From positions 1 to 22,152 of the IMG/VR virus record IMGVR_UViG_3300012936_004285: a DNA stretch of 22,152 bases, one strand, 5' to 3'. Numbering within the stretch: the first letter of the stretch is position 1; each line of letters starts with the position of its first letter. Source of the stretch: a virus. Both the position numbers and the translations under genes were made by a program. Below the pieces are notes generated by a model. The model was not told the origin of the DNA, made no database searches, and saw nothing but the letters and a program-made list of their open reading frames with translations. Below are positions 2,151 to 21,468 of this stretch, one piece after another.

Positions 2151-2155
2151 CCTTT
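2151..2155 (-). promoter_or_regulatory. Ribosome binding site choosing the 2143 start of the GapR-like gene
   Basis: AAAGG followed by A lies seven bases before the ATG at 2143-2141 and just after the alternative ATG at 2158. It favours the shorter protein. Confidence 0.55.
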
Positions 2156-5100
2156 CATGCTAATAGTCTGAAACCAGACGAAACTCGTCTTGTACTAAAA
2201 CCCCACTGGGGATTATAATCTAGTTTAGCCATATAAGGGCGGTTTAGGTGGATTATGTCTTTTTCTGGTCTCACACCCCAACACCTTATTGAAGTAATCT
2301 CACTGTTACTATCGATAACCCTCAAAATGTAATAATCTTTATTGTTTTTAGTTTTCTTTCTGATAAGTTCCCTTGGAACAAACCAAACAACTCCCAACTC
2401 TGCGTCATATTCGCTAATCGGAGGAATATATAGTTCTTCCAAGCGACGCATAACATTTTCATTCATTACTAAGTTTAACGGAAAAGTACCTGTCAAGTCA
2501 ACTAAATACTGTATTTTTTCTTCTTCCGAAAAGTCTCCCTCTGGTGCATACTTCTCAATGTTTTCAAGTAGATTCTTTTCCTTTCTTGGCCTATCAATCG
2601 CTACAGCAGATACAAAATGTTTTAGACCTGTGAAGCGATCATCCATAAGGCAGTTTAAAGTCTGACTTTTAATCAAGGCACTGAGAGCTTTTTTGTTTAG
2701 CTTGCTGTATACAATGTCTTCATTGAAAATAAAATCTTCAATTGTATTAAAGGGCCTATTATCAATAATCTGCTCAATTGCTTTGTCACCTAACCCCTTG
2801 ATCGAGGTGAGTGGCTGAATTAGAGTTTTACCATCTTCACTAATCTCCCACACTGTACCGGAAGTATTAATATTAAGAGGTTCAATCCCAAAACCGTAAG
2901 CCTTAGCAACGTTGATGGCCCTCTCTTTTCTAGAGTCTGGCTCTTTGTCTAGAAAAGCCGCCATCCAACACTCAGGGTAATAATTAAGAAGCCATGCACA
3001 CTGAAAGGATAAAACACAGTAGGAAACCGCATGAGACTTGTTAAAGCCGTATCCTGAAAAGTATTCAAACTTCTCCCATAAATTTCTCGCTTCATGTAAT
3101 CGCATTCCTTTCTCAAGGCATCCTACCTTGAACTTTTCCCATATGATATCCTTTTGTTCTTGAACCCCGTCTGTCCCTTTTTTAGTTAGAAGTTTCCTTA
3201 GTTTGTTACCCTCATCTAGAGACAGATTCTTGCCCAGCATGTGCGCAAGCATAGCAATTTGTTCTTGAAAAATAAGAAAACCAAAAGTTTCTTTAGTCAC
3301 AGATTCCACAATATCGTTATCGTACTCAACATCAAATGGGTTTTCTTTTGCGCTAATAAACTGTTTATCAACTCCCGCCGAAAGAGGACCTGGACGATAA
3401 ATGCTGGTAATGGCTGCAAGTTCAATTATATTGTTTGGCTTTGCATTCTTACAAAAGGATTGTGCGCCAGCTTCTGTGAACTGGAATATACCTGCCCACT
3501 TTCCTTGGTGAAAGATATTTTGCCAGACTTCTTTATCTGAGAGGTCAATACTTTCTGGGTGTAAGTGTTTTTCATAGAACGATTTCACATCTTCAAAAGT
3601 AGGATCAGGCACACCTTCGTATCTTTTTAAAATGTGATGAATCGCATTCTCTACCATTCGCAGAGAAGCCAAACCAAGAATATCGAACTTAATAAAACCC
3701 ATTGGCTCCAAGTGTCTAACATTTTGCCCCTCGCTCCAGGGTGTTTGCCTTACACCCCCACTGTTAATTAGTGGCATCCACTCATTAAGCTTTTCTCCGA
3801 TAACAACACCGCCAGCATGACGCGAGGCCGATCTTGTTTGTCCATAAAGTCTTTCAATGTGATTCTTAATATCAGGATATTTCGCTAAAAACTTTTGCAA
3901 AGTTTCAGAATACTTCATCAATTCTTCAAAAGTAGGATTATAAACCCCTGCAGTGATACCATGAGCCTTCTTAGCTAGTGGTGTTGCTTCGAATATCATC
4001 TTGCTGGTTACTTTGTTGACTTCCTGGAAAGGCACTCCATAAAACTTGGAAATGTCCTTAACTAAGCTTCTTAATTGCAGGGTGTTCCAGTTTGTAATGG
4101 GCACAACTGTATCGTCGCCCCACTCATCAATAAGCTCTTCTTTCAAGGTCATCGGGTCCGAAACATCGTAGTCAATGTCAGGATATCCAGACCCGCCCTT
4201 CGTTAAAAATCTTTCAAATTGAAGGTTATATTTTATCGGGTCAATTTGGGTAATACCCAAGGTATAGGCAACTAGAGAACCAGCCGCAGAACCGCGTCCT
4301 GCCCCCACTAATTGCGATTTTGTAGCCCTGTCAGATATAGCTTTCATGGTCAAAAAATACTTACTAAAGCCACGATCATCGATAACTTCTATTTCTTTTT
4401 TGAGCCTTTCTGCATACTCTTTATTACGTGCCAAACCGAGTCCTCGGGCACCTTCGACACAGAGTCTGGCCAACGCTTCTCTTGGTGTGGCCCCAACAGG
4501 CACCACGAAATCAGGTAAGCGAACAGTATTATCAGGCATAAAATTGGCAATACGGTTATGGGCAATGTCATACGTTGCTTCAATAGATTTTCTAACCAAC
4601 TCGTCATCATATTTAACTTTTACCTTTTCTGAATATTTTTTATATGATTCCCACATTTGATCCCCATTTTTGGGGTATAGTTCATATCCGATCTCTTCTA
4701 CGTCAACTGGCAAATCATCACTAAGCCATTCAACCTTTCGTCCTAAAAAGCCCAGTCTCTTATATAGTTCCCTGTCTTTCCAAGCTTCTGGATTATAATA
4801 GTGACTATCAGCAGTTGAGATCAATTCAATCCCAAACTCATGATGCATTTGTATAATGTATTGATTTAGTTCGTGCTGTTCTGGTACGTCGTTCCATTGA
4901 AGCTCACCATACCATCGATCACCAAAAATAGACTGCATCTTTTGGGTTGTTTCCCTCATAGCATCCAGGATCGCATCGGGGCCGCTCTCTCTGTTCTCCC
5001 AATAATTGCCAGCATAAACTCCACCAAGACAAGCACTGGCAGCAATAACACCTTTGTTATACCTTTTGAGTGCAGCGTAATCTACACGGGGAAACCTATA

Positions 5101-5589: not shown

Positions 5590-5782
5590 TTAGTTCCTCC
5601 ATTTCACCCATAATATACTCAAGTGTTTCCTTGAATGGTTGCATTGTAAATCCCTTTGCTTTTTCACAAAAGGCATCTAAAAATTCTTGTTGATCCCTGC
5701 TTAAGAAAATATAATTTGTTGGAAATCCAATATTTTCTTTTACAAAGTGTGGCAAATCATTATAAAACTCTTCGCTATTCAT
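5573..5782 (-). CDS. Small acidic protein of unknown function
   Basis: A 69-residue acidic protein, predicted mostly helical, with an N-terminal segment NSEEFYNDLPHFVKENIGFP and a Glu-rich C-terminal helix ending MGEMEELIETIQ. I do not recognise a family. Coding status rests on a good ribosome site (GGGAG six bases before the ATG) and tight overlaps on both sides: 8 bp with the upstream 291-residue gene and 17 bp with dnaE. Its 3' end carries the dnaE ribosome binding site, so its translation may be coupled to dnaE and set polymerase output. There are no cysteines in CxxC pairs, no membrane segment and no signal peptide. Confidence 0.65.
   Translation of the reverse strand: MNSEEFYNDLPHFVKENIGFPTNYIFLSRDQQEFLDAFCEKAKGFTMQPFKETLEYIMGEMEELIETIQ
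5596..5600 (-). promoter_or_regulatory. Ribosome binding site supporting the TTG start of dnaE
   Basis: GGAGG lies exactly six bases before the TTG at 5589-5587, inside the last codons of the upstream 69-residue gene. Translation from TTG keeps the FVGLHAHS start of the PHP domain complete. Confidence 0.8.
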
Positions 5783-6650
5783 TTTCTTCTCCCGCTTTTG
5801 AATATTCAGTGTACTTTATAAGTCTATCATTTGGCCTATAAATTTCCAAGCTTTCTTTTGAATTTAAAAAAGAATGGTAATTGTTCCAATTGTCAATCGG
5901 GTAGTACCATGGAATTTCATAGCTGTTACTTGTTTCTATATTAGCAGAACCAAATATTTTGTCAAGTGTAAAGTTTCTTGATGACCATCTTTCCTTTGCT
6001 TTTATATCCATGTTGCCGCCTGTGCATGATTGTTTAAGATTCCAGACGTATTGTTTATACTCATTAGAGTTCATCGTAAAAGATAGGTAGTCACCTGTCT
6101 TTATAGACTTGCCATCATAAGTAAGAAAAAACTGATTTGTATGAGATATTTTCTTTCTGTAGTCCATAATCTTGGATGGGTCGTATACGCCATAAGGAAA
6201 GCAAACATAGTACCTGCTTGGAACAAGCCATTTGCTTATTTTTTTACTGACTATAAAGCTTGTTAGTGCACCATGGAATGCAGACCAACCTAAACTATCT
6301 CTTCTGTCGCGATCTTTCGGGTGTATTGGAGTGTAAAAAACAGGTATTTGTCTTCTAGCCTCCGCTGGAAACTTTTTATATTTTGACCTATCCATATAAT
6401 ATGGATCCTCAATAAAGTCACCTATCCTGCTTCTAATTAAAGGTTGAATGTCGTCATTGCAGACTATCCATATAGTTTCACAACCTGCATAGCCACATTC
6501 AATAACTGCTCTTTCAAGTGCTAAATAGTTCTTAGAAATTGGCTGCAAACAGCTGTGCCAGGGAAATCCAAAGTCTGTCTTTAGTCCAGACACAGGAATG
6601 ATCCCCGCTAGATGAAAAGCACTAATATTGTTTGATCCTGGTTCAAGCAT
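5775..6650 (-). CDS. Conserved-type phage protein, possible GT-A nucleotidyltransferase fold
   Basis: A 291-residue soluble protein. The N-terminal 75 residues read like the start of an NDP-sugar pyrophosphorylase or other GT-A nucleotidyltransferase: a hydrophobic strand with Gly (AGIIPVSGLKTDFG), then PW..CLQPI..NYLALERAV, then AGCETIWIVCNDDIQPLIRSRIGD. In that family the corresponding parts are GxGTR...KPLLPI...PLIE and the GVxxIxVVT strand. The usual GGxGTR loop and PKP lysine are not clearly present, so activity is doubtful. The rest is rich in Tyr, Trp and Lys, with motifs such as WLVPSRYYVCFPYGVYDPSK. The ATG overlaps the previous stop by 8 bp. It sits with the 253-residue gene between the MopE/VWA gene and dnaE. 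A role in sugar or nucleotide modification is a guess. Confidence 0.55.
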   Translation of the reverse strand: MLEPGSNNISAFHLAGIIPVSGLKTDFGFPWHSCLQPISKNYLALERAVIECGYAGCETIWIVCNDDIQPLIRSRIGDFIEDPYYMDRSKYKKFPAEARRQIPVFYTPIHPKDRDRRDSLGWSAFHGALTSFIVSKKISKWLVPSRYYVCFPYGVYDPSKIMDYRKKISHTNQFFLTYDGKSIKTGDYLSFTMNSNEYKQYVWNLKQSCTGGNMDIKAKERWSSRNFTLDKIFGSANIETSNSYEIPWYYPIDNWNNYHSFLNSKESLEIYRPNDRLIKYTEYSKAGEENE

Positions 6651-7404
6651 AACTACTAAGTAGTATATCTTTGTCCTTTGTAGAATTCAAGAATTTTATG
6701 CTTTCTGAATCTTTATATATGTGTTCGCTCGTAAGAAATACTTCTCTATTCGAAGGTTCAAGTTTTACTGAGTTTCTTCTTACATTTCCATTTTTTTGAT
6801 ACCCAGATTTAGAGCCGAGTATGCCAGCTTCTTTTAGAACACTGTGTAATTTAAACTTTACCATAGTATCAGAATATTCAAACTCAAATAGTTGGTCTTT
6901 AGTGAGAGTAGAGACAGTAACAATATCTTTGTGATTCCGACTACCATCTACTCTATAAGACTTATAGAAATATATTTCTTCTGCTAAGTTGTCCTCCGAA
7001 CTTAAAAAACTAGTTTCATGTGGAGAGCAAGATCTGACATTCACCCAATCGTAGACTTTGTAAATTTCCTTGTTGTGTTTTATTATTTCATTGTCACAAA
7101 CTATTCTATTTCCGTTAAAAACAAAGCAACTATCAAACTGTATTTCTAATTTTTGATGGCGAGCTTGAACTACTTTGCAGTTACCCTCTTTTAAACGAAC
7201 AGACTCTATATTTTCAGTGTTTAGAACCTGGCCACGAAAAGACATTTCAAATAAAAGTTCTGACCAAAGCTTTAATGATTCAACTCTATCAAAGCGAAAG
7301 GGCTTGTAGTATGTGTCACATATTAAGCTATACTTGTTTTGATGTGCATAGATAACCGAAGGTAGACAGCCACCTATGACAATATTAGGGTAAGCAAGCT
7401 TCAT
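6643..7404 (-). CDS. Hypothetical protein with a Rossmann-like N-terminus
   Basis: A 253-residue protein I cannot assign. It opens with a beta-strand and Gly-rich turn, NIVIGGCLPSVIYAHQNKYSLIC (split as strand, loop GGCLPS, helix, strand), which recalls the dinucleotide-binding start of FAD/NAD proteins such as UDP-galactopyranose mutase-type enzymes, but GxGxxG is not intact. The rest is beta-rich and charged, with no cofactor motif I can recognise. The start overlaps the end of the MopE/VWA gene by 20 bp, and its own end overlaps the 291-residue gene by 8 bp. The two therefore form a translationally linked pair and probably act together. Candidate roles include an inactive flavoprotein scaffold or a modification enzyme partner; both are inference. 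Confidence 0.55.
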   Translation of the reverse strand: MKLAYPNIVIGGCLPSVIYAHQNKYSLICDTYYKPFRFDRVESLKLWSELLFEMSFRGQVLNTENIESVRLKEGNCKVVQARHQKLEIQFDSCFVFNGNRIVCDNEIIKHNKEIYKVYDWVNVRSCSPHETSFLSSEDNLAEEIYFYKSYRVDGSRNHKDIVTVSTLTKDQLFEFEYSDTMVKFKLHSVLKEAGILGSKSGYQKNGNVRRNSVKLEPSNREVFLTSEHIYKDSESIKFLNSTKDKDILLSSYA

Positions 7405-9623: not shown

Positions 9624-9944
9624 CTATAGCTCGCTAATCATTCCGCAAACATAGTTTTCAAGGATGATATAGTAGTCTTTATCTTTATAATTTACTTTCT
9701 CAATCATAGAGCGATCCACGATTACAGTAGAGTTCTCTTCAAATTTGCGCGTATCTTTACTATGCCGTAAAAATGTATTAGAACAATCGCGAGCAACATC
9801 TAGTATCGTTGCAGATATGTATTTGTCTTCTTTGGGTTTGTAGTCATCTGGTAGCAAGACACCTTTGGTATCTTTCTCTTTTTTAAAGTGTGGCACAATC
9901 AGTATGTGCCTATTAACTGGTTTAAGGGTTGGCGCTATTTTCAT
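9624..9944 (-). CDS. GroES/gp31-like co-chaperonin
   Basis: A 106-residue protein of the cpn10 fold, probably the cap for the host GroEL chamber during folding of capsid protein, as T4 gp31 is. The N-terminus LKPVNRHILIVPHFKKEKD corresponds to the GroES opening strand, RPLxDRVLV. It is followed by a mobile-loop candidate with the hydrophobic contact GVLLP (28-32), then YISATILDVARD (42-53) for the GroES A.G.VVAVG strand, STVIVDRS (72-79), and a final strand KDYYIILENYVCGMI (89-103). The length is between GroES (97) and gp31 (111). AAGGAAG lies just before the ATG. It follows the RNR gene after a 44-bp gap and precedes the MopE/VWA gene by one base. Confidence 0.75.
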   Translation of the reverse strand: MKIAPTLKPVNRHILIVPHFKKEKDTKGVLLPDDYKPKEDKYISATILDVARDCSNTFLRHSKDTRKFEENSTVIVDRSMIEKVNYKDKDYYIILENYVCGMISEL

Positions 9945-9988: not shown

Positions 9989-11851
9989 TTAAACAAATTT
10001 AATTTCACAAGAACCGCCCGCACAAGCTAACTCACCAGACAAGTCTGTATTGTCATCGGTTTCTGTAATCTTAGTCAAGTCGATATCTTCCAAAGCTGCC
10101 AGCATAGCTTCATAAGTTTCTTTTGAACAGTCCTCAAAGGGTGCCTGAACATACGAACCACCATCGTAGGGCAGAACTGAGAGTCCGTTATAGCAGTTCC
10201 TGTTCTCCCACATCCATTCACCAACATCAGGCCACTCCGCATCTTTGATGGAGATAGTAGCCGAAACATTATGCGTATTCTGTCCTTTTCTGAAGCCTGG
10301 TTTTACCCACTCAGTCGTGATCTTTTTTACTCTTTTTAAGAGCTGGAGGGCTGACTCTGTTCTTAGGATAGAACCCTCTGGTGCTTTCTGCGGTATTGAA
10401 ATGACTGCAGTTGAGTGAGGACTAAAATATTCATCCTCTACAAGTTCTGGATGGTTTTCGACCAAATATCCATATATATCTTCATTCTTTCCAACTCTAA
10501 GTCTACGAATGTAGAAGTCATTATGCCACGCATGAATGCCAGAGCTAGTGCCTAAAGTTAGGCTTGTTGTCCCAGCTGGTTTAACACATGTGGTCCTAGC
10601 AGCTTCCCTGATACCAATTAACTTGGCTGTCCTGCTGTTTTCTTCTTTAACAATATTCGCTGCAGCTTCCATATCCAAGTCCAAGATCTTCCCGGAAGCA
10701 ATACCCGTCATGCTAACACCGATTAGTGCGTCTCTCTCTGTCGTTCTTCTCCAAATGTCTCTAAGATAGTGAAAATCTGTATAGCTTGCTTGCAAAGTTC
10801 CAATAAAAGTTGCCGCTCTGACTCTTTCCTCTAAGTCCTCTTGGCTTTCCAAGTTTGAAACATTAACCTCAGTTAAATTACAGAACTGATAAGGTCTTAG
10901 TCCAATTTCACAGCAGGGGTTTGTACCCCAATCTTTATCGTTAGAAAAATAAAAACCTGGCTCACCTGCACCGGAGGCTTTTACTCTGTCCCACAAACCC
11001 ATGAAATATTCTTTGTCAATTTTGTGGCGCAATAGGACCACAGAGTTATTGGCACGACCCCTTTGAGGGCTGGTTTCCCACCAGTTGCCACTCTTTGCTG
11101 AAATCATCTCTTGATCATCTGCTGAAAACAAAGAAATCAAAGCTGCCCTTCTAATGCCGCCAGCTAAGACAGCATCTGCAATGTGACATACAATGTCATG
11201 TACCTCGATGGGCGACAATTTATCTCCATTTTCTTTTTCTCTAAGAATACCTTCAACTTTGACAAGACACTCTCTAAGTGGTTGAGGTCCTGGTGCCTTT
11301 CCACCAGAGGTTATTAATCTTGCGCCCTTTGGTCTAATATCCGAAAAATCAAACCTTAACTTGGAGCCACCCTGGAAATATGACCTCATAAGTGCTTTAA
11401 CGGCGTCTGCCCAACCTTCAATTGAATCGTTAACAAGAAATCTTCTTGTTCTTTTCTTGTTTGGTTTGCTTATTTCTGGTAATTTTTCAACATGATGCTT
11501 TTGAACACTATAGCCGACACCAGTGCCACCTAGTAGAAGAAACATTGCTTCACCGAAAGACCGCCAGTCATCAATGGGCATATAGGCACAATTAAATATT
11601 CTATTTGGTGCAACTTCAATTGGCTTGCCTCCAAACTGCATGGAACGCATAGAGGGTAAAACCTTCTTATCATACACTAATTTATATGCTTTGTGAATCT
11701 GCAATTCTAAGTCTGGATACTTCTTAAGATGCATCTCCATATTTCTAGAAACCAACTCCTCCCAAGTCTCCCTTCTATTTTGCTCAGGTAGGTATCTCGC
11801 ATACTTCATATAAACTGTGATATCAGATAAAATTTTACTAGCCAACTCCAT
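9989..11851 (-). CDS. nrdJ: Class II (adenosylcobalamin-dependent) ribonucleotide reductase
   Basis: Reduces ribonucleotides to deoxyribonucleotides in one polypeptide with coenzyme B12. The 620 residues resemble the monomeric triphosphate reductase of Lactobacillus leichmannii (739 residues). The redox Cys pair is C88 (FNCAY) and C324 (CNLTEVN). N311-P-C313-C-E315 supplies the radical cysteine and catalytic Glu; C313 and C324 are 11 apart, as C408 and C419 are in that enzyme. LLLGGTGVGYSV (106-116), AGGIRRAALIS (230-240) and VKPAGTTSLTLGTSSGIH (423-440) are barrel signatures. The C-terminal tail ends in the CX4C redox pair C610/C615, used for re-reduction. The shorter length suggests loss of part of the allosteric or cobalamin-side insertions. 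It overlaps the helicase gene by 14 bp. Confidence 0.93.
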   Translation of the reverse strand: MELASKILSDITVYMKYARYLPEQNRRETWEELVSRNMEMHLKKYPDLELQIHKAYKLVYDKKVLPSMRSMQFGGKPIEVAPNRIFNCAYMPIDDWRSFGEAMFLLLGGTGVGYSVQKHHVEKLPEISKPNKKRTRRFLVNDSIEGWADAVKALMRSYFQGGSKLRFDFSDIRPKGARLITSGGKAPGPQPLRECLVKVEGILREKENGDKLSPIEVHDIVCHIADAVLAGGIRRAALISLFSADDQEMISAKSGNWWETSPQRGRANNSVVLLRHKIDKEYFMGLWDRVKASGAGEPGFYFSNDKDWGTNPCCEIGLRPYQFCNLTEVNVSNLESQEDLEERVRAATFIGTLQASYTDFHYLRDIWRRTTERDALIGVSMTGIASGKILDLDMEAAANIVKEENSRTAKLIGIREAARTTCVKPAGTTSLTLGTSSGIHAWHNDFYIRRLRVGKNEDIYGYLVENHPELVEDEYFSPHSTAVISIPQKAPEGSILRTESALQLLKRVKKITTEWVKPGFRKGQNTHNVSATISIKDAEWPDVGEWMWENRNCYNGLSVLPYDGGSYVQAPFEDCSKETYEAMLAALEDIDLTKITETDDNTDLSGELACAGGSCEIKFV

Positions 11852-13273: not shown

Positions 13274-14242
13274 TTATGGAAGATTAAAATCCGACACCAT
13301 CTTATTAAATGACTGGAAAAGATCATTTAAAGATATCTCCCCGATGCCGTCTTTGTGCATCATGCCTCTTAAAGAGGTCTTGTTAAACTCTGGAACGTGT
13401 TGTTCTAGTGTTTCTTGTATTCTGTTTCTACCCTGTATTGATATCGACGGAGAATACAATTGCATAATTTGATAGTTTTCTTTGATCAACTTTTCGGAAT
13501 TAGCAACATTGGTATAGACTTTTAAAATCTCAGAATTTTGCTCGGCAAAATTTATAACATCTGACAACATTGCTTCCTTTTCAGATTTCATAAATGGAAA
13601 CCTCTTTGCAACAGTGGCAAGGCCGACTCCCTTGACGCCCTTTAGATTATCACTCTTATCTCCAACAATAGCTCTAGCCATCGCAAAATTGTTTGGGTGA
13701 ATTTCAAATTTCTCTAAGATTTTATTTTTGTTTAAAATCTCATCCTGTGTCGGACGGAAAAGAATAGTGTTATCATCTAAAAGTTGGATGTAATCCTTGT
13801 CGCTAGATACAATCACTTTTTGTGCGCCACTTAAAAAGCTAAGCCTACAAACATAAGCAATTACATCATCTGCTTCCACATGTGGCTCCATAAATTGAAT
13901 CACTGGAGTAGAGTTTAGATACTCTATAATTCTAAGTTGCTGCCAGATTCTATTTAGTTTTTCCTGCTCCTCTGTCAAGCTGCTGTTGCCCCTGTTTAGC
14001 CTGATTGGCTTTCTCCCCTCTTTATAGTTTTTGTTGACCGCTCTTCGCTTTTGAGAACCACCTTCACCGTCCCAGACAACCACAATTGCACTGGGCTTAA
14101 TAGTTCTAGTCAGCTTATTTAATATTTTTAAAAACCCCTTGGACCCACCAATTGGTTGGCCATTTGAAGACAAGCTAGGGTCAACTATATAAGAGCGCAA
14201 AAACTGATTTTGCGCATCGATGATCATAATCCTGTCGTTCAT
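13274..14242 (-). CDS. 5'-3' exonuclease / flap endonuclease (RNase H type)
   Basis: Phage FEN-family nuclease, expected to remove RNA primers and 5' flaps from lagging-strand fragments. The 322 residues are near T4 RNase H (305). Acidic metal ligands fall in the family order: D9 (MIIDAQN), D58 (VVWDGEG), E123/D125/D126 (VEADDVIAY), D148/D150 (VSSDKDYIQLL) and D195/D198 (VGDKSDNLKGVKGVG). The last leads into the helix-three-turn-helix that grips DNA. Its start shares one base with the UVDE stop (TGATG), with GAGGG about eight bases upstream, so the two are coupled. The family-A polymerase in this window lacks a fused nuclease domain, so this gene probably supplies that activity in trans. Confidence 0.92.
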   Translation of the reverse strand: MNDRIMIIDAQNQFLRSYIVDPSLSSNGQPIGGSKGFLKILNKLTRTIKPSAIVVVWDGEGGSQKRRAVNKNYKEGRKPIRLNRGNSSLTEEQEKLNRIWQQLRIIEYLNSTPVIQFMEPHVEADDVIAYVCRLSFLSGAQKVIVSSDKDYIQLLDDNTILFRPTQDEILNKNKILEKFEIHPNNFAMARAIVGDKSDNLKGVKGVGLATVAKRFPFMKSEKEAMLSDVINFAEQNSEILKVYTNVANSEKLIKENYQIMQLYSPSISIQGRNRIQETLEQHVPEFNKTSLRGMMHKDGIGEISLNDLFQSFNKMVSDFNLP

Positions 14243-15174
14243 CAGGCTGCCCTCTCTAGCAATAGATCACGATACCTGATTAAAGACAGCTCTTTTGCCT
14301 TTGCTTCAATCATCATATCGTAGTCACACCCATAATTATTAACAGGTTCGTATACATAGTCAGAGTGAGCTTGAGGTCTAATTTTATTATCACCTTGCTC
14401 TTCTCTTCTAGATTCAGAAAGGTGTACTACTGGCTTAATACCATCGGGCCATGTGGACGCTGCCATCTTTACCGCCTCTTCTTCAGATTGGCCGCCAGTG
14501 CAAAATTTAAAATGGTGATAGTCAAAAACGATTGGAACGCCTACCCTGCTGTATATCAACTCATAAAGGTGTTTAACTGACCACATAGAAGCCTTATCAT
14601 CATTCTCCAGGGTAAGCCTAGCTCTTGTGCCTTCATCTAATTTTAAGAAATTCTCACACCACCTATTTGCCGTACCTTCAAAGTCTCCACCGTAAGTTCC
14701 GCCAACATGAATGTTGATTTTGTTGTAGTGACTTGGGATAAAACCCATCAAGTCCATCATCTCTGAATGTTGGTTTAATTCTTTGATTGTTTTGTTGATA
14801 ACAGATTCTTTGGGTGAGCCAAGAACATTGAAAGGTCCAGGGTGAAAAGTTAGTCTCTGGTTGTTTAGTGTTACAAACTCTCCTACCTGGTCAAGTACAT
14901 AGCAAATCTCGTTGTAATCTGGCAAGTCGCCAAATTCATACTCACTCATCCATGGAAAAATATCTGAAGACATTCTGTAAAACTTGATATTGTTTCGCTC
15001 ATTCCATTCTACAATCTTTTTTAAGTCTTTTACATTCTGCAAAGCCAGCTCGGATGCGTAAGAAATACCCTTCTCTAAAAAGGTTTTCTTAATCATTGAG
15101 CGATTAGTTGTAATTCTTTTTGATTTTGGCAGACTGGAGAAGCCCATGTTGATGCAAGCATAGCCAAGATTCAT
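14242..15174 (-). CDS. uvsE: UV damage endonuclease (UVDE/UvsE)
   Basis: Nicks DNA 5' of UV photoproducts and starts an alternative excision repair. The 310 residues form the family's TIM barrel. Candidate metal ligands are in the expected order: H111 (TFHPGP), H156 (NIHVGG), E190 (LTLENDD), D218 and H221 (FDYHH), H251 (VVHLSE), H270 (QAHSDYV) and E289 (MIEAK). The N-terminus LGYACINMGF matches the family start. From memory, characterised enzymes have a modified Lys two residues before the HLS histidine; here that site is Val and the nearest Lys is four residues before, so chemistry may differ. It is the first gene of the long operon, behind a sigma70-type promoter, with AAAGG about nine bases before the ATG. 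Confidence 0.92.
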   Translation of the reverse strand: MNLGYACINMGFSSLPKSKRITTNRSMIKKTFLEKGISYASELALQNVKDLKKIVEWNERNNIKFYRMSSDIFPWMSEYEFGDLPDYNEICYVLDQVGEFVTLNNQRLTFHPGPFNVLGSPKESVINKTIKELNQHSEMMDLMGFIPSHYNKINIHVGGTYGGDFEGTANRWCENFLKLDEGTRARLTLENDDKASMWSVKHLYELIYSRVGVPIVFDYHHFKFCTGGQSEEEAVKMAASTWPDGIKPVVHLSESRREEQGDNKIRPQAHSDYVYEPVNNYGCDYDMMIEAKAKELSLIRYRDLLLERAA

Positions 15175-15206: not shown

Positions 15207-15235
15207 ACAATACCAAAAAAGACGGGTTATGTCAA
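15207..15235 (-). promoter_or_regulatory. Sigma70-type promoter for the long replication operon
   Basis: On the minus strand TTGACA (15235-15230) is followed by a 17-base spacer and TATTGT (15212-15207). The -35 box is a perfect consensus and overlaps the stop codon of the phosphatase gene; the -10 box matches at 4 of 6 positions. Alternative -10 candidates lie a few bases downstream in the palindromic gtataatac. It precedes uvsE by about 33 bases and is the only promoter-like gap before the run of genes down to IMPDH. Confidence 0.6.
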
Positions 15236-15912
15236 CTTGATTTAATGTTTGGGAAGAGATATTTTTTAGCTATACTTTTGCCCTCTTTGTTGTCGCTAGG
15301 ATAGTGAGCGCCGCGAACAATCCTTGAGTGTTCTATTTTTTCAGCAATATCATACAACTCGTCTTTATGTTTTGGGTGCTTGTCTGCTAGGTAGTAAGCT
15401 AAAGTCCAAGCTTGAGCCGTGTGACCGCTTGGGTATGCTGGAGTATCGTCAGTCTCAGTTTTAATCGAGCTAACATCATAGCCAACTTTTGGGCCTAGTT
15501 GTTCTGGTCTTGGTCTGTTATACCTAACTTTTAACTTGAGAGTTATTATAGCTACATCCTTTACAATGTCCTCTAACATGTCTTTATCAAAGTCAAGATC
15601 ATTGTCTTTTAAGTATTTAACAAACATTTGTTTAGGTCTTTTGTCTGTTTGCTCTAATTCTTTCTTTGATAATTCTTTATTGTTTGTCATGGAATTGAGA
15701 ACTTTTTTAAGCTCGCCCTTAACAGCATCGCTATCGTTTGCTGGATATTTAGTTATCGGAATATCAGAAAGTTCAACGTCAATAACTTTTGTTTGTTGAG
15801 ATAGTCTCTTCTTGTGCTTATTATGCTTTAATTCACCATACTTAAGGTCTCTTATTTCTTGCTTTTTGTTTTCAATAAGAAATTTATTCCAACTTTCCAT
15901 AATGGCTTTCAT
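15232..15912 (-). CDS. Soluble PAP2-type acid phosphatase with a capsid-targeting-like N-terminus
   Basis: A 226-residue PAP2/vanadium-haloperoxidase-fold phosphatase. All three family motifs are present: K128-x6-R135-P, P161-S-G-H164, and S196-R197-x5-H203-x3-D207, where H203 is the expected phospho-acceptor. There are no transmembrane helices, so unlike lipid phosphatases it is soluble, and no secretion signal is seen. The N-terminus MKAIMESWNKFLIEN resembles the T4 capsid-targeting leader of internal proteins (MKTYQEFIAE, cut after the Glu by the prohead protease), with a possible cut after LIE. Residues 16-110 are Lys-rich and helical. The start is ATG at 15912, since the GTG at 15921 lies inside the Shine-Dalgarno sequence. 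The gene stands alone between a terminator and a promoter. The substrate is unknown. Confidence 0.85.
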   Translation of the reverse strand: MKAIMESWNKFLIENKKQEIRDLKYGELKHNKHKKRLSQQTKVIDVELSDIPITKYPANDSDAVKGELKKVLNSMTNNKELSKKELEQTDKRPKQMFVKYLKDNDLDFDKDMLEDIVKDVAIITLKLKVRYNRPRPEQLGPKVGYDVSSIKTETDDTPAYPSGHTAQAWTLAYYLADKHPKHKDELYDIAEKIEHSRIVRGAHYPSDNKEGKSIAKKYLFPNIKSS

Positions 15913-15920
15913 GTAAGGCA

Positions 15921-15926
15921 CCTCCT
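15921..15926 (-). promoter_or_regulatory. Strong ribosome binding site of the PAP2 phosphatase gene
   Basis: AGGAGG lies eight bases before the ATG at 15912-15910. The in-frame GTG at 15921-15919 overlaps this site and so cannot be the start. This matters because it places the leader-like MKAIMES sequence at the exact N-terminus. Confidence 0.8.
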
Positions 15927-16009: not shown

Positions 16010-17149
16010 TTATTCTTCCTTGACTGGCGGGTCTCCTGATTCCTCTGACTCATAAAAGTCAGCGGCGTTTCCTTCTCTATTACAGAATTTCATTATAACA
16101 TCTTCATCAATGATTTGTAAAACTCTTTTTCTAAAATTTTCATCTTTTAGTTCTTCGGTCCACCTTTTGCGCTGGAACTTCTTTTCTGTCCCATCCTCAA
16201 AAACAAGTGTGTACCAAGCGCCAGACTGCTTTAAGCTGTTTGAAATTTGAATTGCTTCAAACCAACTCTCTTCATCCTGGACACCGACTGTGTCGGTATT
16301 ACCCCAAAGAATTTTAAAGTTACAATGACGTCCTGCAGTGCCAAACCTTGACTTCTCAAGTTTGGCCTTCACCTCCGAACCAACTCGGAAGCCATTATCA
16401 TCCAATACAAAAGCCGCCTTTGCTTTTCTGCCTGTCAGCCAAATCCTCAAAGAGTATGCATAATGCATAGCTTTACCACCAGGTGTTACCCACGGTGTTA
16501 CCATAGCCTCTGATGGAGATCTTGTGATGTTAGTTTTTAGCTGGTTAAGGACTAAGAAAGTAGCCTGATTATTAGCGATTGGAACGGTCAGTTTTGACAT
16601 TCCCTTCGATAAAATCCTAGGCTTAACAGCCATTGAAGATTGTGGATTAAAGTCCCCTTCAACATCAGAGATAGATGGCGTCAAAGCCAAAGAATCCCAA
16701 ATAAAAAGCCACTTGTTATCTGTAGATAACAACTCTTCAATAGTTTCTAGTACAAACTCAACTGATTCTGCCTGGACATACATAAGCCTAGACAAGTCAC
16801 AGCCAGCTCTTTCTAGAAAGCCTGGATCAATAGCAGACTCGGAATCAAAATAGACAACATCAATGCCCATCTTTTGTGCATTACCAGCAATTTGTGCTGC
16901 CATAAAAGATTTGCCTGTTGCCTCAAGACCTGCAATCTCTACAACTTTACCAACAGGAATGCCTGCTAGTTTACCCTTGCAGATAATTGAATCTAACCAC
17001 CTGGAACCAGTTGGAATCCACTCCTTTACCTCAGTTGGGTTGTCCTCCTTAAGAGAGTGGGCAATCTCCCTGCCCGCTTTCTTATTAAGAAGTTTTCTTA
17101 TTTCGTCTACATTTAAAGACCCTGTTTTTGGTTTAACCATTTTAAGCAA
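16010..17149 (-). CDS. recA: RecA/UvsX-type recombinase
   Basis: Strand-exchange ATPase for recombination-dependent replication and repair. The 379 residues carry Walker A GLEATGKS (74-81), catalytic Glu in FDSESA (E104), Walker B WLFIWDSL with D152, and a DNA-binding loop region VLNQLKTNITRSPSE through VTPGGKAMHYAYS. The N-terminal segment KEWIPTGSRWLDSII matches the RecA/UvsX pattern for the strand before the core. The C-terminal tail is acidic (YESEESGDPPVKEE), as in many RecA proteins. The start is probably TTG at 17149, with GGAGG exactly six bases upstream; the ATG at 17140 would be 15 bases away. It overlaps the DUF262-type gene by 8 bp and ends at a strong terminator. Confidence 0.93.
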   Translation of the reverse strand: MLKMVKPKTGSLNVDEIRKLLNKKAGREIAHSLKEDNPTEVKEWIPTGSRWLDSIICKGKLAGIPVGKVVEIAGLEATGKSFMAAQIAGNAQKMGIDVVYFDSESAIDPGFLERAGCDLSRLMYVQAESVEFVLETIEELLSTDNKWLFIWDSLALTPSISDVEGDFNPQSSMAVKPRILSKGMSKLTVPIANNQATFLVLNQLKTNITRSPSEAMVTPWVTPGGKAMHYAYSLRIWLTGRKAKAAFVLDDNGFRVGSEVKAKLEKSRFGTAGRHCNFKILWGNTDTVGVQDEESWFEAIQISNSLKQSGAWYTLVFEDGTEKKFQRKRWTEELKDENFRKRVLQIIDEDVIMKFCNREGNAADFYESEESGDPPVKEE

Positions 17150-18464
17150 CTTTATCCTCCTTTATTTGATCAACTTCCTTCTTTGCCAAGAGTGAATTAA
17201 ACTTTGAACTAGATTTTAGTTTGTCAATAAGAGTCTCGCTTCGGCTAGCACGGTCCCCACTTTGATGAGGAAGTTGCGACTGTCTATGATAGAAGGCACT
17301 TTCACTAGGAGTTTGTCTATCATTTTTCAATGCCGACTTTACTTCTGCTGCAAACTTTGCTTGTGAGTCTGCGTAGAGGGAAATATCAGTGTTTACAACT
17401 AAATCATAAAGAACATCTTGGTCAAGAACCCTGCAATCTGAATCGTAAATGTGTGTGCATGCATGAAGCAGTGCCCAGCAGACTCTTGCAGGAATAATTT
17501 TATTGTTAAGTTTTCCCTCGTTTGAGATAACCAAGTCCTGTAGGGCGTACAATATACCCTCTACCCTTTCAAGCTCACTTGAAAGATAGGGAGAATTGTC
17601 CTCATCTTCGATGGAATACGCAGCCTTACCTCTATTATAAAAATAATCTAATTCACTTTTTCCCAAGGGTAATCCCACAGGTGTATTTAATTTGCCCTTA
17701 CTACTAGTAGTCTCGTCCTTAGTTTGTCTATATTCTCTAATTAGAGAAAGGGCAAACTTTGCCACTAGTTCATCATCAACCATTCTAGCAATGTGCTTTT
17801 TGGATACCAAATGCTTAAATAGGGGTGCAAAGTCGCTTGACATATCCCTCACCCACTCTGCGATTGCAGATTTAATTGCATTTCGCATTTCTTGAGCTGA
17901 TTGTTTAACTCCAGCATTTAAAGCAATATAAAGTTCTGATAGTTCGTCTACTGTTAAAGTGTTAAAGCGCGTAACTGTAGTTGCAGTCTGTTCCAAATTT
18001 AATTTAACAGACTCAGGAAAGTCTTTGTAGAATTTGTTTTTTATATATACATCTACACCTTCATTGTTACGAAGCCAACCAGTGAATGCAAACTCATTGT
18101 TATATAACTCTCTTAAGGTTACTAGTCTATTTTGAGCATCTATATTAATATAGTACTTGGCCCGATCATACATTTCTTGGTAGTAATGTTTTGAGTTAGT
18201 GCACTTTGTTGGAGAGCATGGATCTTCAAAATACTCCTTTGCTTCTCTAACTTGTGCAAAGACAAACTTAGATACAGCCCACCCCTTTGCAAAACTCTCT
18301 ACATACTCACATTTCTGCTTCTTTGACCACACCTCACGTCTTTGAAAACTGCGATCAACTTCTACATTATCTTCTGAAAACTTTTTCAGTAATGAACGCA
18401 ACCGATATTCGCTTTCTATTTTGTGCTCTTCTGCCAAAAGATGGCTATCAACTTGATTTTTCAC
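17142..18464 (-). CDS. DUF262/ParB-like domain protein of unknown function
   Basis: A 440-residue protein whose N-terminal 120 residues follow the DUF262 (ParB/sulfiredoxin-like) pattern: V.VDRSFQRREVWSKKQ (34-49), YVESFAKGWAVSKFVF (54-69), and YINIDAQNRLVTLREL (105-120). The usual family motif DGQQR is D109-A-Q-N-R113 here. Two cysteines (C83, C88) lie in an insertion between these motifs. The C-terminal 300 residues are helical and not recognised; there is no HNH (DUF1524) motif of the kind found in GmrSD-type nucleases. It sits directly upstream of recA with an 8-bp overlap, so a role in recombination or genome protection is plausible but unproven. The start is GTG at 18464 with AGGAGG eight bases upstream. 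Confidence 0.75.
   Translation of the reverse strand: MKNQVDSHLLAEEHKIESEYRLRSLLKKFSEDNVEVDRSFQRREVWSKKQKCEYVESFAKGWAVSKFVFAQVREAKEYFEDPCSPTKCTNSKHYYQEMYDRAKYYINIDAQNRLVTLRELYNNEFAFTGWLRNNEGVDVYIKNKFYKDFPESVKLNLEQTATTVTRFNTLTVDELSELYIALNAGVKQSAQEMRNAIKSAIAEWVRDMSSDFAPLFKHLVSKKHIARMVDDELVAKFALSLIREYRQTKDETTSSKGKLNTPVGLPLGKSELDYFYNRGKAAYSIEDEDNSPYLSSELERVEGILYALQDLVISNEGKLNNKIIPARVCWALLHACTHIYDSDCRVLDQDVLYDLVVNTDISLYADSQAKFAAEVKSALKNDRQTPSESAFYHRQSQLPHQSGDRASRSETLIDKLKSSSKFNSLLAKKEVDQIKEDKVA
17156..17160 (-). promoter_or_regulatory. Ribosome binding site supporting the TTG start of recA
   Basis: GGAGG lies six bases before TTG at 17149-17147, inside the end of the DUF262-type gene. The in-frame ATG at 17140 is 15 bases away, too far for normal initiation. 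The spacing equals that of the dnaE and dut TTG starts. Confidence 0.7.
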
Positions 18465-18536: not shown

Positions 18537-18566
18537 AAAAATAGGGGCACCTATAACCCGTGCCCC
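18537..18566 (-). terminator. Rho-independent terminator after ssb
   Basis: A GC-rich 7-bp stem (ggggcac 18544-18550 with gtgcccc 18560-18566) with a 9-base loop. On the minus transcript it is followed by TATTTTT. It lies 17 bases after the ssb stop codon, so ssb is transcribed as a short unit. Confidence 0.85.
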
Positions 18567-18582
18567 CCTGCGGTTTAATAAA

Positions 18583-19356
18583 TTATCCGTTTAAAAGATC
18601 GTTAAAAGCTGCTTCAACGGCATCGGTTCCTGTTCCGGTAACTGTTGTTTCACTTTTGGTACCACCAAATTTTTCAACCTGCTCGCCAGTATTGTCACCG
18701 TCTAGATACGCATCCAATAAACCCTGGACCTGTTCCGAGGTTTTTACCTCAAATAGAGTTTCAAAGTTTGGAATAGTTTCCAACAATTCTGCACATCGTT
18801 CATCGCCTCCAACTGCATCATCACACAACACCGTCTTTCTTGGGCGAGGACGAATGTCTGTTCTTGGAAAAGATGCACCAGCTGGCTTACCGTACATAAT
18901 TTTAAGATCATTACCATCGTCTGGATCAGTGATATCTCCATAGTCTGGATCCAGAACAATTGTTAGTAACTTCTCATATGCCTGCTTACCGTAGCCCCAA
19001 ACTCTTACACCTTCCGACTCTTCACCGCGAACGAGAACCGGTGAAAAAAAGCGCTGCTTTGCAAATAGTCCCTTGGCCATTTTTTTGCTTTCTTCTGTTC
19101 CCTCTTGCCACAACTTGGTTGCAAAGTTACAAACTGGACAATCATCTCCAAAGTTTTTCTTTGGACACATGAAGCCGCCTTGAGCCACATTATAGTGAAA
19201 CCACTTTTCCTTAAAGGGGTCGCCGTCTGCTGTTGGGACAATACGGATATTACTTTCCCCATCTTGTGGCTTCCAAAAATTTGTTCGATTAGTATCACCA
19301 GCTTTACCAGTAACATTGTTTAGTTTTTGTCGCATTCTATCTAAATCTAAAGCCAT
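18583..19356 (-). CDS. Single-stranded DNA-binding protein, T4 gp32 type
   Basis: Coats single-stranded DNA at forks and recombination sites. The 257 residues follow the gp32 layout: a short N-terminal cooperativity region (ALDLDRMRQKLNN), an OB-fold core containing a zinc site, and an acidic tail. Zinc ligands are H54, C64, C73 and C76 in FHYNVAQGGFMCPKK...DDCPVC, the same H-C-C-C order as gp32 with slightly shorter spacing. After a Gly/Thr-rich linker the tail ends DAVEAAFNDLLNG, which resembles the protein-docking tips of gp32 and bacterial SSB. AAAGGAG precedes the ATG. It has its own sigma70-type promoter, a leader hairpin and a terminator, as expected for a protein needed in large amounts. 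Confidence 0.9.
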   Translation of the reverse strand: MALDLDRMRQKLNNVTGKAGDTNRTNFWKPQDGESNIRIVPTADGDPFKEKWFHYNVAQGGFMCPKKNFGDDCPVCNFATKLWQEGTEESKKMAKGLFAKQRFFSPVLVRGEESEGVRVWGYGKQAYEKLLTIVLDPDYGDITDPDDGNDLKIMYGKPAGASFPRTDIRPRPRKTVLCDDAVGGDERCAELLETIPNFETLFEVKTSEQVQGLLDAYLDGDNTGEQVEKFGGTKSETTVTGTGTDAVEAAFNDLLNG

Positions 19357-19391
19357 TTCTATCTCCTTTTTTTGCTCTTTTGGCTAAAGCA

Positions 19392-19411
19392 GGTCGGCTA
19401 ATATCCCGACC
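19392..19411 (-). promoter_or_regulatory. Leader hairpin upstream of ssb
   Basis: ggtcgg (19392-19397) and ccgacc (19406-19411) form a 6-bp GC-rich stem with an 8-base loop in the minus-strand transcript. It begins within about 10 bases of the predicted transcription start and lies about 35 bases before the ssb ATG. An A-rich, probably unstructured stretch follows, up to the ribosome site. T4 gene 32 has a structured leader plus an unstructured A/U-rich tract through which gp32 represses its own translation; the layout here is similar, though I see no obvious pseudoknot partner. Confidence 0.5.
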
Positions 19412-19421
19412 AACTGTTAAT

Positions 19422-19450
19422 ACTATACTAAATGTTTTTTAATGTGTCAA
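19422..19450 (-). promoter_or_regulatory. Sigma70-type promoter of ssb
   Basis: On the minus strand TTGACA (19450-19445) is followed by a 17-base spacer and TATAGT (19427-19422). The -35 box is perfect, the spacer is ideal and the -10 box matches at 5 of 6 positions. It starts a few bases after the stop codon of the upstream gene and points into ssb. Confidence 0.85.
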
Positions 19451-19453
19451 GCA

Positions 19454-20290
19454 TTATCTTTGAATTTGTGAAGAATATTCTACAACAAACCCAAAATTGG
19501 TTTCATAGTCAGTTTCGTATATTGAATAACTAACTCCAACATTTTGGGTTTGTTTTTCTTTCAACTGATTTAGGATTTTTTTATGCAAACCTTTCTCGCT
19601 TTCAAGTGTTGATTTATTTATAGCATAATAGTATCTTTTTTCTTTTACTTCGTCAAGAGAAAAGAACATATTTTCTTGATTATTTTCCAACTCAAAAAAA
19701 CCAATGGTATGTATCCTAGAAGTTTCAGAAACGTCTGAGAACGTAGAACTGACCGGTTTAACGTGATTAAAATAGTTAATCATATGGAAGGCATCAGCTA
19801 CCGTTTTATTAAGTAAATTAAAGTGTTCTGATATGGAAACCTCTTGCAAAAACTCTTCGATAGTTTCGTTGGATACCAATAGAATATTTTTAAAAACTGC
19901 AGACCTAGCATACTCTTGAAGTACACCATATACTACTCTTTCTTGTAGCTTTTCCTTTTCACTCAAAAAAGAAACATCAGGCTTTATGTACAGAACAGAT
20001 ATACTGCACTTCTTAGAGAGGTACTCCAAGATAACCAAAGACGCAGCTGCAGCCCTTGAGCAGCCGCTAACCATAAAAAGAATGTCACCTTCAACTTTAG
20101 TAAGCTTACGCTTAAAATTTAAATTAACAGTTTCATAATCCTCTGGATTGTTGAGGGTTGGTATTTTTATAAAGTTATTTTGTTTTCTATCGCCTTTGTC
20201 ATTTATCTTATAAACCTTGTACTGTTCATAATTTTCAAAATGGCTTGCAAGGTTGCAGGCAGAGGTTCCTAGAGCTATTATTTTTTCCAT
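19454..20290 (-). CDS. Divergent FtsZ/tubulin-like protein (tentative)
   Basis: A 278-residue protein with an FtsZ/tubulin-like order of elements. Residues 3-16 (KIIALGTSACNLAS) resemble the first strand and Gly loop (xVIGVGGAGxNAV). Residues 67-94 (EGDILFMVSGC-SRAAAASLVILEYLSKK) match the strand and helix around the tubulin signature GGGTGTG, but the loop reads GCSRAAAAS. SVLYIKPDVSF then EKLQERVVYGVLQEY (98-127) resemble the following strand and helix. NILLVSNETIEEFL (135-148) resembles VIPNDRLL. NKTVADAFHMINYF (161-174) resembles the AF..AD..L helix. With the Gly signature altered, GTP hydrolysis is doubtful. It overlaps the family-A polymerase gene by 13 bp, with GAGG just before its ATG. 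The assignment is by eye; another Rossmann-like fold remains possible. Confidence 0.6.
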   Translation of the reverse strand: MEKIIALGTSACNLASHFENYEQYKVYKINDKGDRKQNNFIKIPTLNNPEDYETVNLNFKRKLTKVEGDILFMVSGCSRAAAASLVILEYLSKKCSISVLYIKPDVSFLSEKEKLQERVVYGVLQEYARSAVFKNILLVSNETIEEFLQEVSISEHFNLLNKTVADAFHMINYFNHVKPVSSTFSDVSETSRIHTIGFFELENNQENMFFSLDEVKEKRYYYAINKSTLESEKGLHKKILNQLKEKQTQNVGVSYSIYETDYETNFGFVVEYSSQIQR

Positions 20291-21468
20291 GATACCTCTT
20301 TCATGTCCAGCAAATTCTTACCCATCTTTACGTTCACTCTTGTCTTACCAAATCTAGTTTCTTCAAACATTTTAATTATAGATTTAGCAACCGATATATC
20401 TTCTGAAGAGTAATCTAAAATCAACGAGTCATGCATCATAAAAGCAATATTACTGTTTTTGTCTTTAAGAGTCAAGTTTATTTTTTGAGCTTGCTCTAAT
20501 AAAATATCATTAGAAAAAGACTGTAATATATAATTTACAGCGTGAAACTCATCACATTCTATGACTCTGCCATAAGGAGTAGTAATTTTCTCTCCGTCGT
20601 AAAACTTTGATTTTATACTATCTCTGTCATATTCTTTATTTAAAAGGTGATCGCTAGACTCCTGGTTATAGAGCCAGGCAAATACTCTTTTCTTTGCTTC
20701 ATCTCTGGTAATTGAATTATTAAAAACATTTCGACAGTTCCAATCGTGTATGTCTAAGTCTGGCTGTTCTCTATCTAATAAAAACAGCAGTGCTCTCAGT
20801 TCTGCACCGTTAACATCTATCTCTAGAAATAGATCGTTGTTTGGCACAACAAACTTGCGCAACTCTCTATCTAGATTTAAAATAGGAAAAGTCTTCTTTT
20901 TACAAGTTAGTCTTCCAGTCTTTGTACCAAAGATATCATAATCTATTCTCATAGTAAGTTTTTTAATCTTGCGAAAAAACCTATTTATCTTTGAAGGGCC
21001 AAGTGATCTTTTTAACTTTTTCATATCTAATTTGATGTTATTTTTTTTAATGTCTGAAACAAGTTTTGATGCACCAAGCAGATGATCGTAAATACTAGTC
21101 TTCTGATTGTTTTCTATAATATGTTTGGTTATGGTATTTTTAACCTGATAATAATCAATCAATATATGTTCTGGAATTATCTCGTACAAGCAATTTGTAT
21201 TGCAATCAACCTTGGCTGTTACCAGTGCCTTTTTGACTCTGTCCATTTTTCTATTTACTCTGTCCAGATCTTCTTTAAGATGCGGGGGGCATGCTTTATC
21301 TATAGTTTTAGCCTGAATTAGAAGTTGGGCTATGGTAGCTTTGTCTGAAACGTCATCAAAATATGACCAAGTACCTGAATATTCTAAATTTTCTGCTTCA
21401 AAAATCTGCCCACTATCAGAAACAAAAAGATTGCAGTCTCCCTTGTTGTCAATTTTTTGAATAATCAC
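20278..21468 (-). CDS. Compact family-A DNA polymerase (polymerase domain only)
   Basis: A 396-residue PolA-type polymerase with no exonuclease domain. Residues 1-130 are unassigned. The core has TGRLT (184-188), motif A as LEIDVNGAELRALL with catalytic D218 and E223, motif B as R255-x3-K259-x3-F263-x3-Y267, Q316 in the YILQSFSND segment, and motif C as MMHDSLILD with catalytic D347. These are the key residues of the fold, although motif C has HDS instead of the nearly universal HDE, and thumb and fingers are much reduced. Phe at the F762-equivalent site predicts discrimination against dideoxynucleotides. The start is GTG, sharing one base with the previous stop (TAGTG). Proofreading and primer removal would have to come from other genes, such as the exonuclease at 13274-14242. 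It coexists with DnaE. Confidence 0.85.
   Translation of the reverse strand: MIIQKIDNKGDCNLFVSDSGQIFEAENLEYSGTWSYFDDVSDKATIAQLLIQAKTIDKACPPHLKEDLDRVNRKMDRVKKALVTAKVDCNTNCLYEIIPEHILIDYYQVKNTITKHIIENNQKTSIYDHLLGASKLVSDIKKNNIKLDMKKLKRSLGPSKINRFFRKIKKLTMRIDYDIFGTKTGRLTCKKKTFPILNLDRELRKFVVPNNDLFLEIDVNGAELRALLFLLDREQPDLDIHDWNCRNVFNNSITRDEAKKRVFAWLYNQESSDHLLNKEYDRDSIKSKFYDGEKITTPYGRVIECDEFHAVNYILQSFSNDILLEQAQKINLTLKDKNSNIAFMMHDSLILDYSSEDISVAKSIIKMFEETRFGKTRVNVKMGKNLLDMKEVSWKK

Follow-up and report, generated by a model that had tools for sequence, protein, structure and literature searches.

A predicted tubulin-fold gene linked to a thumb-truncated family-A DNA polymerase in the DnaE-bearing replication module of uncultivated T4-like phages

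The stretch of DNA analysed here (hereafter the window) is the whole of the IMG/VR record IMGVR_UViG_3300012936_004285, a fragment of 22,152 bases, and genome-wide checks were therefore run on its relatives. The window, which carries all its genes of note on the minus strand, is a replication module of an uncultivated phage of the T4 superfamily, in which a DnaE-type DNA polymerase of family C and a small family-A polymerase of the divPolA1 type are accompanied by T4-like replication genes, and an open reading frame (ORF) for a protein of 278 amino acids (aa) lies between divPolA1 and the single-strand DNA-binding protein (SSB). The T4-like toolkit listed in a preliminary description of this DNA, i.e., a gp32-type SSB, UvsX, a gp41/DnaB-type helicase and a 5'-3' exonuclease, was recovered by family matches at or close to the reported positions. 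The pairing of the two polymerases is already known from divPolA1 phages, as follows from the available text of Yutin et al. 2024 (PMC11348598), and the element that looks new is the tubulin-fold ORF linked to divPolA1.

For the 278-aa ORF, no credible match was found in Pfam, PHROGs and NCBIfam, nor a tblastn match in 50,697 annotated phage records, and its family had no match among PDB profiles up to E 10. The AlphaFold2 model of the protein, built with 78 sequences, reached pLDDT 94.5 and pTM 0.92, and the best 50 PDB matches returned by Foldseek were all TubZ or FtsZ (top E 1.5e-13). The VIA-align comparisons over residues 1-278 gave Z 23.8 for CetZ (root-mean-square deviation 3.0, 257 residues aligned), 22.3 for TubZ and 21.4 for FtsZ, all three scores lying within Z 21-24, while the BFVD matches include PhuZ from the phage Noxifer (9e-6) and, more strongly, a phage protein annotated as FtsZ (E 6.8e-12). 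As modelled, the protein is a complete two-domain tubulin/FtsZ-superfamily fold. The columns corresponding to guanine contacts are conserved in the family (G8 in 78/78, G11 in 73/78, N141 in 70/78, Y/F157 in 62/78 and N161 in 71/78 members, with D30 also conserved) and fit a guanine nucleotide site, the assignment to T1, T6 and the base contact of H7 being based on alignment to FtsZ and on the known FtsZ residues. At least 591 candidate relatives were found in IMG/VR, and this number, set against the lack of any match in the annotated phage records, marks a common marine gene that is invisible to annotation. The profile hidden Markov model (HMM) of the family had no match in Flavobacterium phage immuto (all ORFs), in the Mel-JY01 locus L160 or in the LR756508 locus L161, and the gene seems, as far as tested, to belong with those divPolA1 phages that carry DnaE. 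The full-length superfamily fold and the conserved guanine-contact positions are common to the 278-aa protein and to PhuZ, TubZ, CetZ and FtsZ; unlike these, it is short, has a degenerate tubulin T4 signature, no conserved T7 acids and no sequence-level match, and is encoded in a replication module beside a polymerase. Neither tubulin nor FtsZ is mentioned in the available texts of the two divPolA1 papers, supplements aside, and literature searches, with the same supplements aside, found no published description of a tubulin-fold protein beside divPolA1. A TubZ-like centromere near the gene was also considered and rejected, with no clear iteron array at 18400-22152.

The linkage of the two genes was found to be close from both sides. 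The tubulin-fold gene lies downstream of divPolA1 on the same strand in 84 of the 86 divPolA1 loci, the other two having less than 900 bases downstream and thus no room for it; the reading frames overlap in 54 loci, 27 of them by 13 bases. When the loci were selected by the tubulin-fold gene, divPolA1 was upstream in 71/80, in two of these with a 2,475-base gap between the genes, and the loci without it comprise three with less than 150 bases upstream and no room for the gene, five with 152-395 bases and one (L320) with 1,973. Because some contigs occur in both sets of loci, the one selected by divPolA1 and the one selected by the tubulin-fold gene, their independence is incomplete.

The 396-aa family-A polymerase reported in the preliminary description was borne out by a PF00476 (DNA_pol_A) match of 39.8 bits, above the cut-off of 34.3, and by a confident Pol I-type model (pLDDT 93.5), which aligns end to end with the large fragments of Bst and Taq Pol I at Z 25-26 over about 350-373 residues. 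Residues 1-390 of the model align with Bst 316-876 (Z about 25, 373 aligned), so that the enzyme has about 170 residues fewer than Bst. About 36 residues separate the 'IKLD' segment from TGR, where Klenow-type enzymes carry the thumb, and by this spacing, compared with that of Klenow and Pol I, the thumb would account for much of the lost length and the fingers for some of it. The motif residues are D218/E223/R225 (motif A), R255/K259/F263/Y267 (motif B), H346/D347 (motif C) and TGR at 184-186, of which D218, R255, K259, F263, Y267, H346 and D347 are invariant in 78/78 aligned homologues; the profile of these homologues matches the Taq, Bst and Klenow sequences, with its motifs aligned to those of Taq. 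The histidine of motif C is missing only in the distant proteins of immuto, Mel-JY01 and LR756508. The N-terminus superposes on the exonuclease-like domain of Bst and Taq, which is itself vestigial, and no conserved acidic triad is present among the N-terminal invariants of the 78 homologues. The earlier statement that the enzyme has no exonuclease domain is right, by model and alignment, as regards an inactive exonuclease, and is to be amended in that a collapsed N-terminal remnant appears to remain. By its motifs and predicted structure, the 396-aa enzyme is divPolA1: it retains the polymerase motifs, its thumb and fingers are reduced, and its exonuclease is dead. It matches immuto gp001 in phmmer at 2.1e-8, and the clade HMM (immuto in the seed) matches a 408-aa ORF of Mel-JY01 at 8e-22 and LR756508 at 5.5e-34; a 428-aa ORF of Mel-JY01, which lies downstream of this homologue, was rejected as divPolA1. 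In IMG/VR, divPolA1 has at least 592 candidate relatives. In the available text of Yutin et al. 2024 (PMC11348598), divPolA1 is a divergent family-A enzyme with a truncated thumb, an inactivated exonuclease and retained catalytic residues, found in 14 phages related to immuto, each of which encodes in addition a regular polymerase from one of the families A, B and C, with GroES-like genes, a type of gene also present in the window, as neighbours of the latter, and the question which enzyme works at the fork is left open there.

The full-length DnaE of the preliminary description holds as well, with the PHP, DNA_pol3_alpha, finger and HHH domains all present and a TIGR00594 score of 575.9 bits (cut-off 434) that places it in family C. 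The catalytic residues D471/D473/D636 are kept in 65/65 aligned homologues, as are the metal ligands of the PHP domain (H17, H19, D27, H52, E82, H136, C187, D261 and H263), which are assigned by alignment to Taq Pol III alpha and by what is known of such ligands. By its intact sites, the enzyme is able to polymerise and probably also to proofread, and it may proofread by itself because the PHP metal site is complete. At the level of motifs, neither polymerase gene gives a sign of inactivity, the catalytic motifs of both being intact. A pattern search of the C-terminal region for the canonical clamp-binding motif gave a match in only 1/65 homologues, though a non-canonical contact may exist. 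The DnaE polymerases of PHROG 405, known from Bacillus, Mycobacterium and Streptomyces phages, are of the same family (2.7e-215) and share the layout of PHP, palm, finger and HHH, whereas the window enzyme has at most about 31% identity to known phage DnaE among the matches listed (40 of 1,355 matching phage records) and, unlike them, is paired with divPolA1 in a T4-like module.

The co-occurrence of the two polymerases was assessed among relatives in IMG/VR, where the DnaE search gave 561 confirmed relatives, of which 80 were kept. Whole-record searches for family-A and family-B polymerases covered 50 of 87 loci, the left-out ones being mostly shorter contigs, and included nine records of 118-193 kb; the divPolA1-selected search covered 31 of 80 loci (at least 20 kb, outside the first set) plus three named records, the tubulin-selected one 14 of 80 loci, and the alignments 77 of 80 complete homologues plus the window (A2), 77 of 78 (A3), 25 of 55 (A4) and 26 of 53 (A5). 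A PF00476 match (E 0.01 or better) was found in 36/50 DnaE-related records, in 28 of them above the cut-off, so the co-occurrence is not due to chance, and the two polymerases that the preliminary description saw in one phage module are a property of the clade. In 13 of the 14 records without such a match, the contig stops no more than 11.3 kb upstream of DnaE, the DnaE-PolA distance being 11.1-15.3 kb in four large relatives, and the remaining one (G047) lacks the SSB region too. These four large records, covered wholly or almost wholly (G041, 190.6 kb; G004, 170.9 kb; G011, 192.8 kb; G028, 160 of 161.7 kb), share the order divPolA1, 278-aa ORF, SSB, UvsX, exonuclease, helicase, 253-aa ORF, 291-aa ORF and DnaE, and two further large records, G008 and G009, each have the DnaE locus and a DNA_pol_A match. 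DnaE is present in 8/14 tubulin-selected records, including all four of 155 kb or more. It is present in only 4/31 divPolA1-selected contigs; the other 27 are uninformative rather than contrary, because they end at most about 12.5 kb downstream.

The absence of the T4 family-B polymerase, noted earlier for the window, extends to its relatives: none was found in the 50 DnaE-related and the 14 tubulin-selected records, while the same kind of search detected family B in Mel-JY01 and LR756508. Thus divPolA1 is accompanied by a family-B polymerase and a loader in Mel-JY01, by DnaE in the four large clade genomes and by a 777-aa PolA in immuto, where the 441-aa gp001 precedes SSB, RecA, exonuclease and helicase and the PolA stands elsewhere beside GroES/GroEL. 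On these sequence comparisons, it is supported that DnaE stands in for the T4 family-B replicase, i.e., the polymerase replacement of the preliminary description; its division of labour can be regarded as plausible, given that divPolA1 is retained alongside main polymerases of three different kinds. As the main replicase is swapped while divPolA1 stays, the two proposals together would make a plausible reading. Two further loci are recorded. The 484-kb uncultured phage LR756508.1 (L161) has a 452-aa divPolA1 homologue, family-B matches in two frames and, in addition, a DnaE-like frame of 575 aa. The divPolA1, tubulin-fold, SSB and UvsX genes also occur inside the 2.8-Mb 'chromosome' of a WOR-3 metagenome-assembled genome (MAG; L244, CP070664.1), which is the one match among genome contigs; a bacterial home for divPolA1 was rejected, the locus holding 300 N and most likely representing a phage contig that was wrongly joined to the bin.

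As regards the rest of the replisome, phmmer matches (1e-3) to T4 gp43, gp44, gp45 and gp62 were found neither in the window nor in the four large genomes. The loader profile phrog_168 matched T4 at 2.9e-135, Mel-JY01 at 6e-77 and 11 other clade records at best at 1.7e-8, weakly and with AAA proteins; a 360-aa AAA protein was rejected as a clamp loader (phrog_1297 at 6e-49 against 0.001 for phrog_168), and the match of locus L123 is an AAA_5 protein of a different PHROG, MoxR-like in our judgement. This protein (L123:2919-4001, in G041) forms a pair with a DUF2201 metallopeptidase/VWA-like protein (L123:1622-2836) that is kept in 4/4 large genomes. The DnaN clamp was found in 0/15 records and the gp45 clamp PF02916 only in T4 among the 15, the latter search being insensitive, with nothing in the loader-bearing Mel-JY01, so that a diverged clamp is possible. 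The family-B polymerase with a complete clamp and loader set, named in the preliminary description as a contrary finding, was looked for in the relatives and not found; for the loader the result is a lack of the T4 type, and for the clamp it carries the limit just given. The 253-aa and 291-aa ORFs beside dnaE were considered as a hidden clamp and set aside for lack of Pfam, PHROG or PDB-profile support, although one of them may still encode a clamp. A DnaG-type primase related to immuto gp091 is present in 4/4 large genomes, as had been suggested for checking, and the stand-alone 3'-5' exonuclease of the RNase_T type, also to be looked for, was found in 0/15 records; the PHP site of DnaE may make a separate one unnecessary. 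In 4/4 large genomes, a metallophosphoesterase and an SMC-like ATPase (SbcD/SbcC, T4 gp47/gp46) are fused in one protein of 1,050 aa (L154:10229-13381 in G028, and orthologues).

The genes of the window are collected in Table 1. The 291-aa product resembles sugar nucleotidyltransferases in its N-terminal pattern, a likeness seen by eye. The 745-aa lipoprotein between the 253-aa ORF and groES is outside the core clusters common to the window and the four large relatives and is probably host-derived. The UV-damage endonuclease UvdE lies inside the replication module, a PAP2-superfamily phosphatase between UvdE and UvsX, and a 440-aa protein between UvsX and SSB. The ORF upstream of divPolA1 has 405-487 aa in relatives and a long Gly/Ser-rich tail in the window.

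Table 1. Genes of the window, with positions, strand and the basis of assignment
Feature	Position	Strand	Basis
DnaE-type family-C DNA polymerase, 1144 aa	2155..5589	-	domain and TIGR00594 profiles
Conserved 291-aa ORF directly upstream of dnaE	5775..6650	-	no family match
Conserved 253-aa ORF	6643..7404	-	no family or PDB sequence match
Putative lipoprotein, 745 aa	7385..9622	-	five Cu-binding_MopE repeats and VWA domain
GroES-like co-chaperonin	9624..9944	-	Cpn10 27.2 bits, cut-off 21.1
Ribonucleotide reductase large subunit, B12-dependent-type insertion domain match	9989..11851	-	domain scan
gp41/DnaB-type replicative helicase	11838..13226	-	T4 gp41 phmmer 8.3e-33
5'-3' exonuclease (RNase H of the preliminary description)	13274..14242	-	family matches
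UV-damage endonuclease UvdE	14242..15174	-	195 bits
PAP2-superfamily phosphatase	15232..15921	-	
UvsX/RecA recombinase	16010..17149	-	family matches
440-aa protein	17142..18464	-	sub-threshold GmrSD_N and PHROG 1583 match
gp32-type single-strand DNA-binding protein	18583..19356	-	family matches
Tubulin/FtsZ-superfamily protein, 278 aa, 13-base overlap with the polymerase gene	19454..20290	-	predicted structure
Thumb-truncated, exonuclease-dead family-A polymerase (divPolA1 type), 396 aa	20278..21468	-	PF00476 and model
C-terminal part of a larger conserved ORF upstream of divPolA1, cut by the contig end	21468..22103	-	

In comparison with the T4 replisome (Straboviridae), the clade shares the gp32-type SSB, UvsX, the gp41-type helicase and the 5'-3' exonuclease, and its portal, capsid and terminase are homologous to those of the T4-like immuto; it differs in having neither gp43 nor a true gp44 loader and in carrying DnaE and the gp091-related DnaG-type primase instead. 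In immuto and its relatives, according to the available text of Yutin et al. 2024 (PMC11348598), divPolA1 lies upstream of conserved replication genes, as in the window clade, and relative to the 14 published divPolA1 phages this clade is the DnaE-bearing part, with the tubulin-fold gene directly behind divPolA1.

The explanation considered best overall, and held with moderate confidence, is that DnaE is the replicase, divPolA1 an accessory enzyme and the tubulin-fold protein a partner or positioning factor. From the observed genes, motifs, predicted fold and linkage, we infer the following roles. DnaE would synthesise most of both strands, following the gp41-type helicase and the DnaG-type primase, and divPolA1 would be a low-processivity polymerase filling short patches, either Okazaki gaps with the separate 5'-3' exonuclease, a gap filling already proposed in the preliminary description, or patches of D-loop and repair synthesis with UvsX and gp32. 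The tubulin-fold protein would bind GTP and be made in step with divPolA1, and it would either be a filament or scaffold by which the phage replication complex is tethered or positioned, or form a non-hydrolysing GTP-sensing subunit of divPolA1. A more specific proposal for this large marine T4-superfamily clade is put forward tentatively, with more doubt than confidence, namely that its cryptic GTP-binding protein of the tubulin superfamily is coupled in translation to the thumbless family-A polymerase and acts together with it. A number of points weigh against the explanation considered best. The fold claim rests on the model because hhalign of the family to single sequences of FtsZ (E 0.22) and PhuZ (E 0.036) was not significant; of the 78 members, 5 reached the Pfam tubulin model (best 0.0073) and 11 the Rossmann family TrkA_N (best 6e-5), the latter probably owing to a GxGxxG-like T1 loop. 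The tubulin T4 signature is degenerate, with GxGxISG in the family and the exact GGGTGSG missing, the T7 catalytic acids, NxDxx(D/E), are not conserved in the 78-member alignment, and the window copy departs from the family loop residues at A6, A11, N30 and SGCSRAAAA; by these residues, filament formation or GTP hydrolysis may be absent. The gene overlap speaks of co-expression and not of a complex, and the conserved replication context belongs to divPolA1 and not to the regular polymerase, as described in the available text of Yutin et al. 2024 (PMC11348598), which could place divPolA1 nearer the fork.

Several other explanations have to be weighed. The strongest, only a little short of an even prospect, takes the tubulin-fold protein to be unrelated to the polymerase, sharing an early operon with it and either positioning or segregating phage DNA in the manner of PhuZ and TubZ or blocking the host FtsZ; it draws on the fold matches to TubZ, FtsZ and CetZ, on Noxifer PhuZ among the BFVD matches and on the known phage tubulins, which act on DNA positioning according to the part of PMC4244570 available, whereas the order of divPolA1 and tubulin-fold gene holds in almost every locus of both the divPolA1-selected and the tubulin-selected set, and the T7 acids needed for the usual GTPase cycle are not conserved. 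The 150-190 kb genome would have to be copied without proofreading, by an enzyme with truncated thumb, shortened fingers and dead exonuclease, if divPolA1 were the main fork polymerase, with DnaE auxiliary (repair or late) and the tubulin-fold partner or another neighbour replacing the thumb as DNA grip. This is regarded as improbable, also in view of immuto, Mel-JY01 and LR756508, which have divPolA1 and, in the sequence searched, no detected tubulin-fold gene; its merits are the conserved SSB-UvsX-exonuclease-helicase context beside the more varied contexts of the regular polymerase, the occurrence of divPolA1 in DnaE, PolA and PolB backgrounds alike, and the strictly linked tubulin-fold gene. 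Very unlikely is a family-A enzyme that has become something other than a DNA polymerase (e.g., DNA-end binding or RNA-synthesising) and leaves all DNA synthesis to DnaE: its strong divergence, truncated thumb and short fingers would suit such a change, and an RNA polymerase activity was raised for the other divergent group, divPolA2, in the available text of Yutin et al. (PMC11348598), yet motifs A, B and C keep their catalytic residues in all 78 homologues, the motif C histidine being lost in the distant proteins only. As to processivity factors, the use of the host sliding clamp and loader by DnaE, the phage having lost only its own set, is thought rather unlikely; no DnaN, gp45-type clamp or true loader was found in the 12 clade records including the window, but the clamp search is the insensitive one described above and the canonical clamp-binding motif is nearly absent from the DnaE homologues.

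Returning to the explanation with DnaE as the replicase and divPolA1 as its accessory, a widespread uncultured group of marine T4-like phages would copy its DNA with a bacterial-type polymerase, as we infer from the sequences. If the proposed partnership is true, a tubulin-fold protein would organise replication factories outside the nucleus-forming jumbo phages, or would restore to the polymerase its lost DNA grip or regulation, and divPolA1 would then be the first polymerase to have a partner of this fold. Two questions are made testable by the findings: why some phages keep a crippled second polymerase while exchanging their main one, and whether, in phages without a nucleus, DNA replication is organised by proteins of the tubulin type.

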